From NCBI GenBank assembly GCA_022824265.1, contig JAJEAG010000027.1, positions 62,001 through 126,000 on the forward strand: DNA of 64,000 bases, in the 5' to 3' direction. A program made the translations under genes and the position numbers. Positions 12,059-21,504 of this stretch are shown one piece after another. Position 1 is the first letter of the stretch. Every line of letters starts with the position of its first letter. Source of the DNA: Candidatus Poribacteria bacterium. Lineage in GTDB: Bacteria; Poribacteria; WGA-4E; WGA-3G. The notes beneath the pieces are model-generated. The model was not told the DNA's origin and did not search any database. It was given only the letters and a program-made list of their open reading frames with translations.

Positions 12059-12694
12059 GTGAGATAAAGGGTAGGATCTACAGCATAAGGGGTTCCTATT
12101 TTGAGTTTCTCAGTATATCTACCTCTTCATATAAACATCGGAAAAGTATACCATATCCTAAGGCAGTTTTCAATGGAATAAATGACTTTAGAAATCGGCT
12201 GAATCCTCCTCCTAAATTCCGTTGTCATTGTTTTGGTAGAATAATCCGAATTTTCAGAGTCATTCCTGACTAAATAAGTCATAATTACCCTGTAAAACCA
12301 TACAGGATATAGGTTATCGGCACATCATAAAATTGTTCAATTTTCCGCTTGACTCTGAAAACTCTGAATCTATAGACTGTAAGTAATGTAAATATCATCA
12401 TATCAAATAGGGTCTCCTTCTGGCACACAATACTATTCATTAATCGAACTCACGTTATATATTATTCTCAATAATGTTTTGCGTTTTCTTGAATACCTAT
12501 TTACAAGTAAACATACTTCAATATCTTACGTTTCAGTTTGAACTGAAATAACTTATATTCTTTAGATAAAAACACACTTCATATAACCATAAACTATTCT
12601 TACTTAAATGGATAAATCTCAAATACTTATCCATTACTGCTAATTTTATGCAACCTTTTCATCAAAAACAGGTGTCTTTGCGTCACGAGGTAAT
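12059..12694. other. A+T-rich intergenic region with short inverted repeats
   Basis: No gene is supportable. It holds a 12-bp inverted repeat TTTTCAGAGTCA (12251-12262) / TGACTCTGAAAA (12350-12361) and, inside it, a 6-bp hairpin CCTGTA...TACAGG (12289-12306) and a 5-bp hairpin around 12267-12280. These lie upstream of the sigma-factor fusion and could be regulatory sites. Confidence 0.5.
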
Positions 12695-12712
12695 TTGTTT
12701 TGGAGTAGAAAC

Positions 12713-14869
12713 ATGAAAAATAATGACAGTGAACTGATTCATCAAGTATTATCTGGTGACCAAGAGGCATTTACTACCTTAGTAAGTAAATACCAAAAGC
12801 GAGTGCATGCACTTATATGGAAAAAGACTGGGGACTTCCACGTCGCTGAAGAGATTACACAAGATACTTTCCTGAGAGCGTATAGAAAACTTGGTTCACT
12901 GAAAAATACAAATCTGTTTGCAGGATGGCTCTATGTAATTGCAAATCGTCTGACTAACACTTGGTTTCAGAAGCAGAGACCTAAGATGCAGTCCTTAGAT
13001 GCAATGACACAGACACAGATTGAAGAGTTGTACTATTCTAAGTATGTAGAAGAACACCGTGATGAAATTGCATTAGAAAAAAGAGTTGACCTTGTCAAGC
13101 GTCTACTAAATAAATTACCTGAGAGTGAACGGAGTGTCATTACGTTACACTACCTCGCAGGGAGTTCAGTTAAAGAGATTAGTGAATTTTTGGGTGTTTC
13201 GTTGAACACGGTAAAAAGTCGTTTGCACCGAGCACGCAAACGCTTACAGAAGGAGGATAACATGATACGCGAAACATTAGGTAGCTTACAACCCACAACC
13301 AACTTAACCGAGGAAATAACGAAAATAATTAAAGATACCGGATCACAGATTGATCCTACAACAACTTCTGGTAGCAAACCGTTTGCGCCGTGGGTAATTG
13401 CCACGTCAACGGTAATCTTTATCGTACTAATGCTTGGAATTGGTGCAAATAATCTTGTGCAAATTCAGCAACCGTATAGTCTTGATGCCACATCTGAAAT
13501 GACTGTAGATATCGTTGACGCAGGTTTAATGTTGAACCTACCATCTAATCCCAATGTGCAAAATCAAGCAGGGAATATCAATGTTCCTGATAACAATGAT
13601 GAAACGAATCAGAACATTGAACCCAACGTATCTTCTTCTGCCTCTGGTAAGATAGTTGATGAGGATGGAAGACCTGTAAATGATGTCAAGGTCGCTATTT
13701 TTCCAGTCAAAGATGGTAATGGTGCTTGGTTTCCAACGACCATTGGAGGTCCGAACAGTATCCACGACGGTCTGCTGGCATTTCCTGCGGAAATCAATCG
13801 CAATGGAAATTTCACGATCAAAGAATTCGATCGTAAAGTCGTGCAGTTAGGATTACTCCCATACTATAGACCAGAGCAGAGAATCGTAAAGATACAAATA
13901 GGTGATCTTTATCTATTTCCACATAAATCGATTAGTACTAATGGAATAGTGCTTCAAACAATAGAAAAACAAGAGATCACAAATGTCGAAATTACTGTCC
14001 AAGAAGATACACTTTACACATCAAAAACACGGCAAAATAGATCTACTAATAGATCTTCAAAACAATATTTAACTCAGAGAGGTGTAGCAAATATAAGCGG
14101 CAAGGTTGTAGATGTAGATGGAAAGCCAGTTGCTAATTTACCTGTTTTTGTATGTTCTCAACACATTACTCCAGACGAGTATTTAATAACTGCTATATTA
14201 CCTGACTCTTTTCCAAATTTACTCCGTGCACAGACAGATGTAGAGGGAAGGTTTGCTATATCAGGTGTTACTTCATTACCACAATATTTCGGAGCTCTTC
14301 CTTACAACATTGATTATCGTCTACCTAAAGACTTTGATAATATTCTAAAAAAGTTTAATTCTCGTGCAAACCAACTCCCATTTCACAGATTGAAGCCATA
14401 TATAAAAGAATTTGAGGAGCACGGCTTCGGAACTCGTCATTATGATTATGAACCGGATGTTGAAATTGTGTCACTAAGAATTAATGGAATCACCTATTAT
14501 CCGCAAAGTGATTTTGATGATATTCCTTTTGGTATTGTTCCCCGTGCGAATATTAAAGACGTAGTAGTTACCGTGCAACCGAGAGGATATGTTAAGGGAC
14601 GTGTCCTATTTAGAGACGGAACGCCTCTTACCAATGCTCGTTTGAAACTTAAATATAACTACGGTGTAAATAATAGACGCGGAGGACTTAGTACAAGGGA
14701 TAAATTATGGGTAGATGCCGATGGTTATTTTATTCATTATCTCGATGAAAAAGATGCACACTTCTCTTACCAGTTTACGATTGAGTATCAAGGTCTTACA
14801 GCAACTTCTACTCCAATCACACTTAAACCCGGACAACGGTATGACAATCTTACATTTACACTGAAATAG
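12713..14869 (+). CDS. ECF sigma factor fused to a membrane segment and carboxypeptidase-regulatory-like domains
   Basis: The 718-residue protein has an ECF sigma factor at the N terminus: region 2 (about 5-95, with AEEITQDTFLRAYRKL and a FAGWLYVIANR segment) and region 4 (about 135-185, with LPESERSVITLHYLAG and the helix-turn-helix SVKEISEFLGVSLNTVKSRLHRARKRL). A single hydrophobic helix (about 227-247, WVIATSTVIFIVLMLGIG) follows, then an outside part with three CarboxypepD_reg/CnaB-like beta domains, two of which open SGKIVDEDGRPV and SGKVVDVDGKPV, and a third ORF-terminal one. Sigma factors direct RNA polymerase to promoters; here the same chain appears to span the membrane. The start is ATG 12713 with GGAG 7 nt before it; the frame is open back to a TTG at 12695. 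Whether the sigma part is released by proteolysis is unknown. Confidence 0.88.
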   Translation: MKNNDSELIHQVLSGDQEAFTTLVSKYQKRVHALIWKKTGDFHVAEEITQDTFLRAYRKLGSLKNTNLFAGWLYVIANRLTNTWFQKQRPKMQSLDAMTQTQIEELYYSKYVEEHRDEIALEKRVDLVKRLLNKLPESERSVITLHYLAGSSVKEISEFLGVSLNTVKSRLHRARKRLQKEDNMIRETLGSLQPTTNLTEEITKIIKDTGSQIDPTTTSGSKPFAPWVIATSTVIFIVLMLGIGANNLVQIQQPYSLDATSEMTVDIVDAGLMLNLPSNPNVQNQAGNINVPDNNDETNQNIEPNVSSSASGKIVDEDGRPVNDVKVAIFPVKDGNGAWFPTTIGGPNSIHDGLLAFPAEINRNGNFTIKEFDRKVVQLGLLPYYRPEQRIVKIQIGDLYLFPHKSISTNGIVLQTIEKQEITNVEITVQEDTLYTSKTRQNRSTNRSSKQYLTQRGVANISGKVVDVDGKPVANLPVFVCSQHITPDEYLITAILPDSFPNLLRAQTDVEGRFAISGVTSLPQYFGALPYNIDYRLPKDFDNILKKFNSRANQLPFHRLKPYIKEFEEHGFGTRHYDYEPDVEIVSLRINGITYYPQSDFDDIPFGIVPRANIKDVVVTVQPRGYVKGRVLFRDGTPLTNARLKLKYNYGVNNRRGGLSTRDKLWVDADGYFIHYLDEKDAHFSYQFTIEYQGLTATSTPITLKPGQRYDNLTFTLK

Positions 14870-15187
14870 TTCTCCAATTGCACAAAATAACCGTAAACAC
14901 AATTTCATATAATGTAGATTGGAAAAAATCCGATTAAATCCCATCTATAATTCCGAGTATATTGTTCGACTATGCTTTGTTAGGGGTTTCGCATTCAGTC
15001 TGCACTTGCACGATACTGTGCTGCTTTAAAGCCAGAATGCACATAATTGTGCATTCTGGTGTTGTATCAAAAGAGAATCCTAATCTAAAACAGTTACATA
15101 TTTGGCACAAATATTGCTGAATTGCTGGTATAATTGATAAAACAAATATATCACTTGCAGAACTTACGCAATCGGAGGTATTATCTT
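14870..15187. other. intergenic region with strong hairpin
   Basis: Between the sigma fusion and the lectin-domain gene. Apart from the 12-bp hairpin at 15032-15059 no gene or clear promoter was seen. Confidence 0.5.
15032..15059. repeat. perfect 12-bp stem-loop
   Basis: CCAGAATGCACA (15032-15043), loop TAAT, TGTGCATTCTGG (15048-15059). There is no T-run, so it is not a standard terminator. The core CAGAATGC...GCATTCTG recurs as a hairpin inside the MITE at 26352-26376, which suggests a repetitive palindrome rather than a gene-specific site. Confidence 0.75.
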
Positions 15188-15190
15188 GTG
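15174..15190 (+). promoter_or_regulatory. ribosome site that selects a GTG start
   Basis: GGAGG at 15174-15178, 9 nt before GTG at 15188-15190. It lies inside a longer open frame beginning at TTG 15134 and places the start immediately before the hydrophobic signal segment. Confidence 0.75.
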
Positions 15191-17248
15191 TTCTATTCAT
15201 ACTATACACATATATTGATATTCCTAACGAGTCTCATACTATTATGTGCATTACCTTCTCAAAGCCTCGCTGAGTCCTTTTCAGGACGTGTTGTTGACGA
15301 AGAAGGCAATCCTGTTGCTAATGTTACAGTATCCCTTCGAGATATAAACCTCAATGCAGCGGCACTCTCTAAAACAGATGATAAAGGCACATTCTCTATA
15401 ACCACGACCAATTCTCCAGTGGTATTGATGTTACATCCTCAGAGAAAAACAGAATATTTTATTCGGAAGGTTGATATATCAGGACTAATCTTATATCCCG
15501 ACCAACATGTAAATACTAATGAATTTTCAATATTTACAATTGTTGAAGGAGCAGAAATAAAAAATGTTGAGATTACAGTACGTAAGCGAATACAAATCAG
15601 AGGACGTGTTCTTAACCAAGATGGCACACCATTGAAAAATATCAAGGTAGAAGTAAGATTCTATGGTCATTCATTAAATGAGGAACGGATTCGTAATTGG
15701 GCAACAAAGACCGACCTTGATGCTGAGGGGTACTTTGAAGAATATGTTGATCATCCAGGAATATATACGGTATCGGTAATACATCAAGCTCAGATAGCTA
15801 CAGCAGATGAATTACATATTACAAAAGAAAATGACCTGCCTAATCTTGTGTTGATGCTTGGTGGGATAACTAATGTAAAGGACAATAGTATCAGGGTCAG
15901 TCAAGTACCACTTGTAGTTGAACAACCTGAACTTCCTGAACAACCTCCTGCTATTCCTCCTGATACTGCAACAAAATCAAAGGAAAAATCAACATTGTCT
16001 GGACATGTCGTTGATACAGATGGGAACGTTATCTCAGGGATAAAATTAGCCTTACAACCTATGCATTTCAAACACGGTATGGTTTTACCCGAGACTGAAT
16101 TTTTTAATACAGGTAATGTCTCGGAATCTCAAATACCTCGTTCCACTATAAATTCACAAGTCAATTCATCGGGGAAATTCTCATTCAACAATATTGAGTC
16201 TGGACTACTTCAACTATTCATTGGACCTGAGGATTCCTCCTTTGATACTGACAATATCACATCACGACGACAGATTCTATCCCACTTAGATTCTGAATAT
16301 GATATGCAGTCAATTAAAATTGGACAATTGATTTTTGAAAACATAGTAGTTAATCCACGATTTTCCTTAAAGCAATTTATGTTTGCTATCAAGCCTGGAA
16401 CAACTATTGAAAACGTAGAAATCACCGTCAAAAAACGAATACGAATAGGTGGTAAAATTGTCTACGCAAATGCATCACCTGTTAAAAATAGATTGGTGAA
16501 GTTAAGAGTAAAAGAACCACAGAATAGAGAACTTGGACCAATTCAGTTAGGGGATGCAGATGGTTATACATTAAAAAGAGAAATTTGGACAAATAATAAC
16601 GGAGATTTTTCAATATTTGTTCAAAACCAAGGTGATTATTTTTTCCACGTTGAACACATAGTCCTTTCTGCAAAAGCAGGACCAATTGCGGTCAAAGATA
16701 AAGAACAACAGAATGAATTGATATTGCAACTTAATGGTACAATAATTTTTCCAGATACTCCCAAAGAAGAAATACAACCAGATGAACCAGGATTTTCTGC
16801 CGATGAGCAAATACATGATGTGTGGGTCGTAAACCCAACAAATGGACATTCATACAAATTAATCGCATGTGAGGATTGGTTTGACGCACATAGACAAGCA
16901 ACAAAAAACGGCGCACATCTACTCGCCATAAACGACGAAGCAGAACATAAATGGATTATGGAACTGTATGGTAGTGGATTCTTCTGGATTGGACTTAATG
17001 ATTTGGATAAAGAGGGTGAATGGCAGTGGGATGGTGGCGAACCAATTACCTACGAACGCTGGGAATCAAACGAGCTCTTTCCAGACGACACACTAACAGA
17101 TGAAGAAAAAGATTACGCAGTCATGAACCTAAACGGTGCTTGGCAACAAACAGCACCGCAGGCTACCATCTGGATTATGACGCGTCAAGCAATAATCGAA
17201 AATGACGGACGGCTTTCCACCATAGAAGCGAATGACATACCTAAATAA
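15188..17248 (+). CDS. secreted protein with carboxypeptidase-regulatory-like domains and C-type lectin domain
   Basis: About 686 residues from the GTG start. A signal peptide or anchor (THILIFLTSLILLCALPSQSLA) is followed by repeated CarboxypepD_reg-like beta domains (SFSGRVVDEEGNPVANV, IRGRVLNQDGTPLKNI, LSGHVVDTDGNVISGI and IGGKIVYANASPVKNR), and a C-terminal C-type lectin-like domain of about 130 residues: HDVWVVNP..GHSYKL, WFDAHRQATKNGAHLLAI, FWIGLND and WQWDGGEPITYERW. The family C-terminal CGY signature is not preserved; the end reads WIMTRQAIIEND. Family members bind sugars or proteins at the cell surface. It lies 318 bp after the sigma fusion, whose outer part has the same domain type, so the two may recognise related ligands. 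Function is inferred. Confidence 0.85.
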   Translation: MFYSYYTHILIFLTSLILLCALPSQSLAESFSGRVVDEEGNPVANVTVSLRDINLNAAALSKTDDKGTFSITTTNSPVVLMLHPQRKTEYFIRKVDISGLILYPDQHVNTNEFSIFTIVEGAEIKNVEITVRKRIQIRGRVLNQDGTPLKNIKVEVRFYGHSLNEERIRNWATKTDLDAEGYFEEYVDHPGIYTVSVIHQAQIATADELHITKENDLPNLVLMLGGITNVKDNSIRVSQVPLVVEQPELPEQPPAIPPDTATKSKEKSTLSGHVVDTDGNVISGIKLALQPMHFKHGMVLPETEFFNTGNVSESQIPRSTINSQVNSSGKFSFNNIESGLLQLFIGPEDSSFDTDNITSRRQILSHLDSEYDMQSIKIGQLIFENIVVNPRFSLKQFMFAIKPGTTIENVEITVKKRIRIGGKIVYANASPVKNRLVKLRVKEPQNRELGPIQLGDADGYTLKREIWTNNNGDFSIFVQNQGDYFFHVEHIVLSAKAGPIAVKDKEQQNELILQLNGTIIFPDTPKEEIQPDEPGFSADEQIHDVWVVNPTNGHSYKLIACEDWFDAHRQATKNGAHLLAINDEAEHKWIMELYGSGFFWIGLNDLDKEGEWQWDGGEPITYERWESNELFPDDTLTDEEKDYAVMNLNGAWQQTAPQATIWIMTRQAIIENDGRLSTIEANDIPK

Positions 17249-17381: not shown

Positions 17382-17410
17382 TTGACAACATTGAATTCAT
17401 CATGTTATAC
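17382..17410 (+). promoter_or_regulatory. promoter of the CBM9 gene
   Basis: TTGACA (17382-17387), 17-nt spacer, TTATAC (17405-17410); TATACT one base later is also possible with an 18-nt spacer. It is 36 nt before the GTG start at 17446. Confidence 0.75.
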
Positions 17411-17445
17411 TTATTTTCAATATAGTCCACAGGAGGAATCATAAA

Positions 17446-19959: not shown

Positions 19960-20694
19960 ATGACAGGTGAAGAAAAATTTCAGGTAGACCTTGAGGGATA
20001 TCTGGTCATCAAAAATGTATTGACTGATGACGAAGTCTCTGAAATGAACACCTTTATTGATAAAGGTGATATGGAAGGACGTCCAAGTTTATGGGGAGAA
20101 CCTTTTAAGAGACTTATAGATCATCCAAAAATCTTACCATATCTTATTGAACTATTGGGACCCTATGTTCGTTTAGATCACGATTATGTAATTATTATGA
20201 ACAAAGGTGAGAAAAGAGGAAGATTGCATGGAGGTGAAGATGGCGGACATCCAAGTGGAAACGTGGGGGATCACTGGTATAAATATCGCGATGGAGTAAT
20301 GCGAAACGGATTATCTGTTATGACCTACAATTTGAAAGATGCTCCTGAAGGAGTCGGCGGATTCGCATGTATTCCAGCAAGCCACAAATGTAACTTTGCA
20401 ACTGAAATACCAGGGGATGTGCGAAGTTTTGAACGTTCCGCACATTATGTCGTCCAACCACCACTTGAAGCAGGAGATGTCCTATTCTTTACTGAGGCAC
20501 TCATTCATGGTACGATGCCGTGGCAAGCAGACCATCAACGACGCGCTTTGTTATTCAAATACAGTCCGGGACATTCTGCATGGAACGGAAACTACTACGA
20601 CATCAGTAAATATGGAGAGTTGACGGATAGACAAAGACGTATGCTCATGCCACCGTCCATTGGAAGAAGACCACGTGTAGTTGATCCAAATTGA
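19960..20694 (+). CDS. phytanoyl-CoA dioxygenase (PhyH) family protein, copy A
   Basis: A 244-residue member of the PhyH group of Fe(II)/2-oxoglutarate oxygenases. Recognisable blocks: the N-terminal GYLVIKNVLTDDEV, RLDHDYVII, RLHGGEDGG, GFACIPASHK and the distal histidine region ALIHGTMPW followed by RRALLFKYSPGH, where Arg would hold 2-oxoglutarate. His of LHGG and His of IHGT are likely metal ligands; the canonical HxD carboxylate is not obvious. The AAAGG at 19945-19949 precedes the ATG by 10 nt. The next gene is a close tandem copy, about four of five residues identical by eye. Substrate unknown; PhyH expansions are typical of Poribacteria. Confidence 0.88.
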   Translation: MTGEEKFQVDLEGYLVIKNVLTDDEVSEMNTFIDKGDMEGRPSLWGEPFKRLIDHPKILPYLIELLGPYVRLDHDYVIIMNKGEKRGRLHGGEDGGHPSGNVGDHWYKYRDGVMRNGLSVMTYNLKDAPEGVGGFACIPASHKCNFATEIPGDVRSFERSAHYVVQPPLEAGDVLFFTEALIHGTMPWQADHQRRALLFKYSPGHSAWNGNYYDISKYGELTDRQRRMLMPPSIGRRPRVVDPN

Positions 20695-20769
20695 AGTTTA
20701 TAGTATCAAACACATTTGTATTCGCGTAATACACGCGCATATTATATTGCAATGAAAGGAATGTTTCCT

Positions 20770-21504
20770 ATGACAGGAGAAGAAAAATTTCAGGTAGACC
20801 TTCAAGGATATTTGGTCATCAAAAACGTACTGACAGATGATGAAGTCGCTGAAATGAACGCATTCATTGATAAAGGTGGGATGCAAGGTTCACCAAGTTC
20901 ATGGGGTGAACCATTTAAACGACTTATTGATCATCCAACAATCCTATCATATCTTATTGATTTATTAGGTCCAAATGTGCGTCTGGATCACGACTACCCT
21001 ATTTTTATGAATGGTGGTGAGGGACGTGGCGGACTTCATGGAGGAGAGGATGGAGGTCGTCCCGGTGGACCTGAAGGAGACCATTGGTACAAATATCGTG
21101 ACGGGGTCATGCGCAATGGATTGTGTGTAATGACCTATAACCTCGCAGATGCACCTGAAGGTGCAGGTGGATTCGCATGCATTCCTGGGAGTCATAAAAG
21201 TAACTTTCTGAGAGAAATACCTTCAGATGTACGTAATTTTGAACGTCCGACACACTATGTCGTCCAACCCGCCCTGGAAGCAGGTGATGTCCTATTCTTC
21301 ACTGAAGCACTTGTTCACGGGACAATGCCGTGGAAGGCTAAGAACCAACGGCGCGCTCTATTATACAAATACAGTCCGGGACACTCAGCATGGTCAGGTA
21401 ATTACTACGACATCAGTAAATATGGAGAATTAACGGAACAGCAAAAACGTATGCTATTACCACCATCCATCGGTGGGAGACCGCGTGTAGTTGATAGCAA
21501 TTAA
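20770..21504 (+). CDS. phytanoyl-CoA dioxygenase (PhyH) family protein, copy B
   Basis: Tandem copy of the preceding gene with the same length (244 residues) from the ATG at 20770, chosen because it aligns with MTGEEKFQVDL of copy A and has AAAGGA 9 nt upstream; the frame is open further back. The blocks are GYLVIKNVLTDDEV, RLDHDYPIF, GLHGGEDGG, GFACIPGSHK, ALVHGTMPW and RRALLYKYSPGH. Differences cluster around the LHGGEDGG loop (RPGGPEGD versus HPSGNVGD), near the active site, which suggests a different substrate. The gap to copy A is 75 bp, so they are probably co-transcribed. Confidence 0.88.
   Translation: MTGEEKFQVDLQGYLVIKNVLTDDEVAEMNAFIDKGGMQGSPSSWGEPFKRLIDHPTILSYLIDLLGPNVRLDHDYPIFMNGGEGRGGLHGGEDGGRPGGPEGDHWYKYRDGVMRNGLCVMTYNLADAPEGAGGFACIPGSHKSNFLREIPSDVRNFERPTHYVVQPALEAGDVLFFTEALVHGTMPWKAKNQRRALLYKYSPGHSAWSGNYYDISKYGELTEQQKRMLLPPSIGGRPRVVDSN

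Follow-up and report, generated by a model that had tools for sequence, protein, structure and literature searches.

The genes at the locus

We analysed a 64,000-nucleotide stretch of a Candidatus Poribacteria genome (assembly GCA_022824265.1, contig JAJEAG010000027.1, positions 62,001 to 126,000), hereafter the window, and focused on two neighbouring genes: one for an extracytoplasmic function (ECF) sigma factor joined to a predicted membrane anchor and outer beta-domains, and one for a secreted protein that ends in a C-type lectin domain (Table 1). In the first gene, sensor part and sigma factor form a single open reading frame (ORF). Its product scores above the Pfam cut-offs for Sigma70_r2, Sigma70_r4 and Sigma70_ECF, and likewise for the NCBIfam sigma70-ECF superfamily, while CarboxypepD_reg passes its cut-off for the last of the three beta-domains (14591-14758). 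By Pfam and a domain model built here, the outer part consists of CarboxypepD-type domains only, with no carbohydrate-binding domain.

The lectin ORF opens at TTG 15134 and ends at 17248; GTG 15188 is the likelier start, because GGAGGT stands before it and the signal peptide remains. Pfam assigns this protein CarboxypepD_reg and, at 40.1 bits (cut-off 22.6), Lectin_C. We compared an AlphaFold2 model of it (mean predicted local distance difference test score, pLDDT, 76.6) with the PDB by Foldseek. The top-ranked matches are pilin and adhesin beta-domains aligned to the stalk; single-domain animal C-type lectins match with TM-scores by target of 0.72-0.80, and the PDB matches include Endo180, CD23 and MGL. 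The modelled structure and the Pfam score thus support the C-type lectin fold that a preliminary description had read from the sequence. The same description had placed one type of beta-domain in both neighbours and a CBM9 gene after them, and both statements were borne out. A whole-genome search with the lectin protein as query reached the sigma protein's outer part at E = 1.3e-11 (136 positions aligned at 33% identity, extending one codon beyond the stop of the sigma gene), and the domain model detects the domain three times in the sigma protein and four times in the lectin protein. Judged by these comparisons, the outer domain type is common to the two proteins beyond chance.

Table 1. Features of the sigma-lectin locus (positions in the window)
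Feature	Position	Strand	Basis
ECF-type promoter-like motif TGCAACC-N16-GTGTC, upstream of sigma-fusion gene	12649..12676	+	motif scans
Membrane-anchored ECF sigma factor with outer CarboxypepD-type domains (putative), 718 residues	12713..14869	+	ATG start, ORF and domain searches
Sigma-70 region 2, residues 23-89	12779..12979	+	Pfam PF04542
Sigma-70 region 4, residues 128-178	13094..13246	+	Pfam PF08281
Predicted transmembrane helix, residues 227-245	13391..13447	+	mean hydropathy 2.24
Conserved stalk directly outside the membrane, QQPYSLDATSEMTVDIV	13466..13516	+	alignments A1 and A2
Three CarboxypepD-type beta-domains (13637-14002, 14093-14578, 14591-14758)	13637..14758	+	domain model built here
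Perfect 28-nucleotide inverted repeat CCAGAATGCACATAATTGTGCATTCTGG, between sigma and lectin genes	15032..15059	+	read from sequence
Sigma54-type promoter-like site TTGGCACAAATATTGCT, upstream of lectin gene	15102..15118	+	comparison of orthologues
Secreted protein: signal peptide, four CarboxypepD-type domains, C-type lectin domain; 686 residues from GTG 15188	15188..17248	+	Pfam, domain model, AlphaFold2, Foldseek
C-type lectin domain	16820..17203	+	Pfam Lectin_C, domain model, fold match
Sigma70-type promoter-like site TTGACA-N18-TATACT, upstream of CBM9 gene	17382..17411	+	promoter scan
CBM9-domain protein, probably with signal peptide, 234 residues	17446..18150	+	Pfam CBM9_1, 52.5 bits (cut-off 23.4)

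A candidate family of membrane-anchored sigma factors

Sigma region 4 occurs at 43 places in the window's genome (G000), which we classed by length and hydropathy as 20 anchored fusions, 8 long fusions without a helix above the threshold and 15 plain sigma factors. The threshold was passed by 20 of the 28 long sigma ORFs, always with the helix near residues 219-245. These 20, selected from the 28 by the presence of a helix after region 4, could be aligned along 112 columns that span linker, helix and stalk (alignment A1); the invariant positions are K, P and P ahead of the helix, G where it ends and Q beyond it, and the stalk consensus resembles FQxPYSLDAxSExTxEIV. Head, linker, helix and stalk are common to all of them and the outer domains are exchanged. 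By Pfam the outer parts are of Sortilin/BNR/DUF6242 type in 11, WD40 in 5 and M16 in 1; the remaining 3 have no family in one case, CarboxypepD in the window gene and a lectin domain in one paralogue (L033:15167-17278; lectin 34.2 bits, cut-off 22.6; CarboxypepD 29.9, slightly below the cut-off of 32.3). By these sequence features, the window sigma gene is a member of a family of putative membrane-anchored sigma factors. The zinc-finger motif HxxxCxxC was looked for between region 4 and the membrane and found in 0 of the 20 rows of A1, and 20 of 20 rows contain no cysteine.

The anchor alignment finds 23 places in the window's genome and matches 68 of 84 genomes of the phylum: 58/58 in the window's family, 9/14 in the rest of its order, 0/10 in the rest of the class and 1/2 in the rest of the phylum. 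Genomes of the window's family have 1-59 matches each, these counts being "at least" values where only 59 candidates were scored; one genome, G081, gave 57 in one search and 58 in a second.

An ECF-type motif upstream of the family's genes

The motif that precedes the window sigma gene also precedes its orthologues (L126:10928, L129:13846 and L130:430), with GTGTC or GAGTC as the second box. Across 22 upstream regions, those of the 20 anchored sigma genes, the window lectin gene and the CBM9 gene, ATGCA and GCGT spaced by 18-19 bases occur in 9, while the best pair per shuffle reached 3-5 (20 shuffles). A strict form of the motif has 8 matches genome-wide and 0 in the reversed control; 6 of these start 65-93 base pairs (bp) upstream of anchored sigma genes and 2 lie upstream of WD40-like genes. 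The latter two genes (L226, G000:C75, and L229, G000:C81) have no sigma head and are possibly targets or headless relatives. A looser form, TGCA-N18..20-G[CTA]GTC, stands at 10/20 anchored, 1/8 other fused and 0/15 plain sigma genes of this genome. The window-type motif also has a match 33 bp ahead of an ORF read as RadA (L242, G000:C52), which may be chance.

The form TGCA[AC]C-N16,17-G[CTA]GTC was counted in the window, one other locus of its genome and the relatives' loci, after genes whose upstream regions were short or repeated had been removed. It stands before 21 of 22 sigma-lectin/CarboxypepD genes versus 2 of 525 other genes, and is found at 9/61 heads of runs of lectin genes, 0/174 lectin genes within runs and 0/7 other sigma genes; the reversed control gave 0 in every class. 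At most 400 bp from the run head, the motif is present in 5/6 runs with a sigma gene inside versus 4/52 without (Fisher p = 0.00015), and for runs of three or more genes in 5/6 versus 3/17 (p = 0.009), although both p-values are optimistic because related loci are not independent. One match of the preceding count (L177) was left out of the 400-bp count, the contig start being too close, and in the sixth sigma-containing run (L136) a transposon-like gene pair separates the head gene from a motif copy. ECF sigma factors recognize a -35/-10 promoter, often that of their own gene. We infer from the enrichment that the motif is the promoter which this family uses and which its ECF heads may recognize.

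Sigma heads are joined to other kinds of protein in the same genome. One is followed by DnaN sliding clamp domains (G000:C76:25320-27077, L037:7320-9077; looser anchored-sigma motif upstream), another by an S9 peptidase with beta-propeller repeats (G000:C76:28578-31388, L037:10578-13388), and an ORF of 1347 residues (G000:C38:1600-5643, L049) combines a sigma head with FtsZ GTPase and C-terminal domains, PHP and DNA polymerase III alpha, for which an assembly error is possible. Such fusions show that sigma heads travel widely, and they would suit an explanation in which sigma activity has been lost from the anchored proteins, the head being a cytoplasmic binding module or decoy and the whole protein a surface adhesin. 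We regard this as very unlikely, given that many positions in regions 2 and 4 are invariant across all 20 anchored fusions and that a specific ECF-type motif is common to the genes.

Sigma factor, CarboxypepD and lectin domains in one chain

In relatives, and in the lectin-bearing paralogue described above, sigma, CarboxypepD and lectin domains occur in one chain. A secreted CarboxypepD-lectin gene is the immediate same-strand neighbour of the sigma-lectin gene in 18 of 18 distinct places (13 from regions matched to two window proteins and 5 from lectin-domain regions, after removal of 9 repeat views), a non-random sample, since the regions were chosen through matches to window proteins or to the lectin domain. 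Two further cases in genome G045 fit by coordinates. In the window's genus the sigma-lectin gene heads a pair in the 7 loci read; in the other main genus it is embedded in runs of 6-12 genes at six loci (L134, L136-L140) and heads a short run in L204. The gaps downstream of sigma-lectin genes are mostly 4-63 bp, operon-like, and wider in L136 (371) and L201 (216). In L136 (G081) the sigma-lectin gene is broken by a stop codon. A run of 12 secreted lectin/CarboxypepD genes in L135 (G070) has the motif at its head and no sigma gene within.

A scan of named genomes with the lectin alignment, from which the best 80 of 227 relatives were kept, gave 69 distinct loci, all in Poribacteria and including the contigs of the window lectin gene's closest relatives. 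C-type lectins bind sugar in a loop that, across 91 aligned lectin domains, is among the more variable parts, with other columns varying equally, while many scaffold columns are nearly invariant. The EPN and WND motifs make up the calcium/sugar site of C-type lectin-like domains and are missing in many members of that class. Patterns for these motifs, P-x-D, [ED]D[YWC]V and W-x-[DN], are matched by 10/12, 10/12 and 11/12 sigma-lectins and by 8/79 secreted lectins for each pattern; the window lectin matches 0 of the 3. That EPN/WND-like residues are kept by most sigma-lectins and by few of the secreted ones fits a putative sensing role for the former and putative other or diversified binding for the latter. 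A tree of the lectin domains requires 3 changes of the sigma label versus a shuffled mean of 11.4, on few columns and with weak deep forks, and places the window lectin with its six orthologues.

The window pair as a probable derived branch

The co-occurrence of sigma and lectin genes, which the preliminary description had put forward as a check of its proposal, holds in part of the 7 loci with the window lectin type: the two are adjacent in 2, compatible with adjacency in 1, separated in 1, ambiguous in 1, and 2 have no sigma gene at the place. They adjoin in the window's genome and in G042 (L126); in G037 both lie at contig ends, compatible with adjacency across the break; in G045 they are about 7.4 kb and four genes apart; and in G036 a CarboxypepD ORF without a sigma head lies near a contig end. 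No sigma gene stands at the place in G039 and G043. In G039 the flanks are about 96% identical to the window and positions 12474-14986 are cleanly missing, with the lectin and CBM9 genes remaining. Loss is the simpler reading there because G042 carries the sigma gene at the same place; for the same reason we rejected the idea that this lineage gained the sigma gene recently by insertion.

The lectin gene of the window is preceded by TTGGCACAAATATTGCT at 15102-15118, which we take to resemble the sigma54 consensus. TGGCAC-N5-TTGC is kept in 6 of 7 orthologues, though the flanks differ, and among the lectin genes examined this kind of site occurs only in the window's lectin type: 6/80 first lectin genes, 0/155 within runs and 1/531 other genes have one. 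The genome has one RpoN match. A stricter sigma54 pattern has 11 sites in the genome versus 2 in the reversed control, and 9 of the 10 sites elsewhere have a same-strand ORF of at least 80 codons within 111 bp (a count made without a control set), the genes that follow including ones read as Hsp20, ClpB and DnaK. The sigma family's own motif was looked for before the window lectin gene and not found. From these sites, transcription of the window lectin gene is predicted to depend on sigma54.

We consider the window pair a derived branch of the sigma-lectin system, partly come apart: a lectin domain is missing from its sigma protein, a sigma54-type site stands before its lectin gene, and in a close relative the lectin gene occurs without the sigma gene. 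One alternative is that the two genes are neighbours by descent only, through a duplication in a CarboxypepD-lectin cluster in which one copy received a sigma head in place of its signal peptide, the products acting independently. The sigma-lectin/lectin pair that lies directly beside the orthologue of the window pair in G042 fits such an origin, as do the differing promoter-like sites of the two genes, the absence of the sigma gene in G039, the many lectin runs without a sigma gene and the gap of 265-318 bp in the window versus 4-63 bp after most sigma-lectin genes. Yet the four identified window-type sigma genes, among the matches listed, are all in genomes that also have the window lectin type, which suggests some link. 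We hold this explanation to be possible but somewhat doubtful.

In another alternative, one ligand could bind both the outer domains of the window sigma protein and the secreted lectin, coupling the pair. The common domain type and the adjacency in the window, the single-chain fusions in relatives and the pair kept side by side in G042 speak for this. It is nonetheless unlikely, since none of the four known genes of the window's sigma type (window, L126, L129 and L130) encodes a lectin domain, the lectin gene has its sigma54-type site and stands without the sigma gene in G039 and G043, and the CarboxypepD-type modules may be mere stalks, given the pilin and adhesin matches. A common ligand for receptor and lectin is plausible at the level of the family and weakly supported for the window pair.

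A proposed single-chain sigma receptor

The reading that we favour, and think rather probable, is that the window sigma protein is a one-piece transmembrane receptor that transcribes its own gene from TGCAACC-N16-GTGTC, with the window pair as the derived branch described above. The ECF head would lie in the cytoplasm, tethered through one membrane helix and the conserved stalk to the outer beta-domains. The tether most likely prevents the sigma factor from engaging RNA polymerase until something happens at the outer domains; lacking the zinc-finger anti-sigma motif, it would probably inhibit by confinement or through the linker. The outer event would release the sigma factor, probably by stepwise membrane proteolysis, by analogy with known fused sigma factors (PMC8999054). 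A site-2 protease family member is present in the genome, which says little because 14 of 14 control genomes have one. The freed sigma factor would then transcribe its own gene. In relatives, a receptor that ends in a C-type lectin plausibly switches on secreted lectins of its own kind, since the same kind of motif precedes the sigma gene and the runs of secreted CarboxypepD-lectin genes. The window lectin would be an adhesin-like secreted protein under separate, sigma54-dependent control.

Several observations weigh against this proposal. The topology of the sigma fusion is based on hydropathy only, and the AlphaFold2 model of the protein (17 alignment rows, mean pLDDT 43.6) was too poor for use. 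The looser motif is present at only half of the anchored sigma genes, most others having variants by eye. In the loci studied, 7 of 7 sigma genes without CarboxypepD or lectin domains have no stricter form, and the looser form stands at 2 of the 6 anchored ones; in reversed controls the looser form appears at 1/80 lectin-run heads, 4/155 genes within runs and 1/15 plain sigma genes. A pattern fitted to the window's own motif has 8 matches in the genome versus 3 in the control, so that targets beyond the sigma gene itself cannot be told apart. Finally, of 58 lectin runs not headed by a sigma gene, 52 contain none, although some of these are truncated where a contig or locus ends.

The link between sigma factor and lectin is strongest in relatives, where fusion is accompanied by common promoter motifs, and it suggests that the sensor activates its own gene and, in those genomes, lectins. 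The preliminary description had proposed a surface sensing module with one ligand for the sigma factor and its secreted partner. That idea is partly supported. Relatives speak for it, with their one-chain proteins, a lectin neighbour everywhere counted and the motif at 5/6 run heads; the window pair speaks against it, as the sigma protein there has no lectin domain, the lectin gene has another promoter-like site and adjacency holds in only some relatives. More broadly, and tentatively, Poribacteria may have a large repertoire of autoregulated single-chain sigma receptors, of which those with C-type lectin domains would turn on tandem runs of secreted, animal-like lectins; the lectins displayed by the symbiont would then be chosen directly by glycans of the host or matrix. 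If so, one polypeptide would join sensing outside to promoter choice inside, in tens of copies per genome with differing outer domains. Which environmental cue governs which genes could then be read off in bacteria that are known chiefly from marine sponges and have been sequenced as metagenome assemblies. Regulons would become predictable from the promoter motif, and the sigma-lectin loci would give a well-defined example in which to study glycan sensing in symbiosis.

Relation to known systems

Among the most similar known systems is ECF52, for example SCO4117 of Streptomyces coelicolor. ECF52 proteins have an ECF sigma factor, a transmembrane segment after region 4 and an outer carbohydrate-binding domain in one chain, with autoregulation and a proposed release by proteolysis (PMC5826349, PMC8999054), features that we liken to those predicted for the anchored family. 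As to the outer domain, the window sigma protein shows only CarboxypepD-type domains, and its sigma-lectin relatives have a C-type lectin domain that may bind sugar. ECF52 proteins differ in having a zinc-finger domain between region 4 and the membrane, a proline-rich outer region and a distribution reported as exclusive to Actinobacteria (PMC5826349, PMC8999054). The Poribacteria proteins have, instead of the zinc-finger motif (0/20), another conserved stalk, exchangeable outer domains and many copies per genome. SigI/RsgI of Clostridium thermocellum is likewise a set of paralogous sigma systems that steer secreted proteins and whose outer sensors serve different substrates (PMC12203970); RsgI, however, is a separate anti-sigma protein, whereas sensor and sigma factor are one chain in the window. 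In IutY (ECF243) of Pseudomonas putida a sigma factor is likewise joined to a membrane anti-sigma part, from which regulated proteolysis sets it free, but IutY belongs to iron-starvation cell-surface signalling for a siderophore (PMC8999054). The lectins resemble animal C-type lectin-like domains (Endo180, CD23, MGL) in fold, and most sigma-lectins also keep EPN/WND-like residues; they differ in being bacterial and carried on CarboxypepD-type stalks, and the window lectin fits none of the three motif patterns.

Poribacteria are known from sponges (PMC6081418). In the accessible part of that paper the single "sigma factor" is an antagonist assigned to Acidobacterium, and no lectin appears. Among literature titles and abstract openings, with subscription papers mostly outside, none mentions, for Poribacteria, a family of membrane-anchored sigma factors or a fusion of sigma factor and lectin.

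Other features of the window

The inverted repeat between the two genes was considered as a terminator and rejected, as it has no T run and is absent from the list of the terminator scan. The sigma70-type site upstream of the CBM9 gene scores 11/12, the best of 28 in a scan that is near chance overall (23.4 expected); both hexamers and their spacing are retained in L125 and L126, where a gene of the same length as the CBM9 gene comes after the lectin gene. Further downstream, at 19960-21504, lie two similar adjoining genes that we read as phytanoyl-CoA dioxygenase-like.

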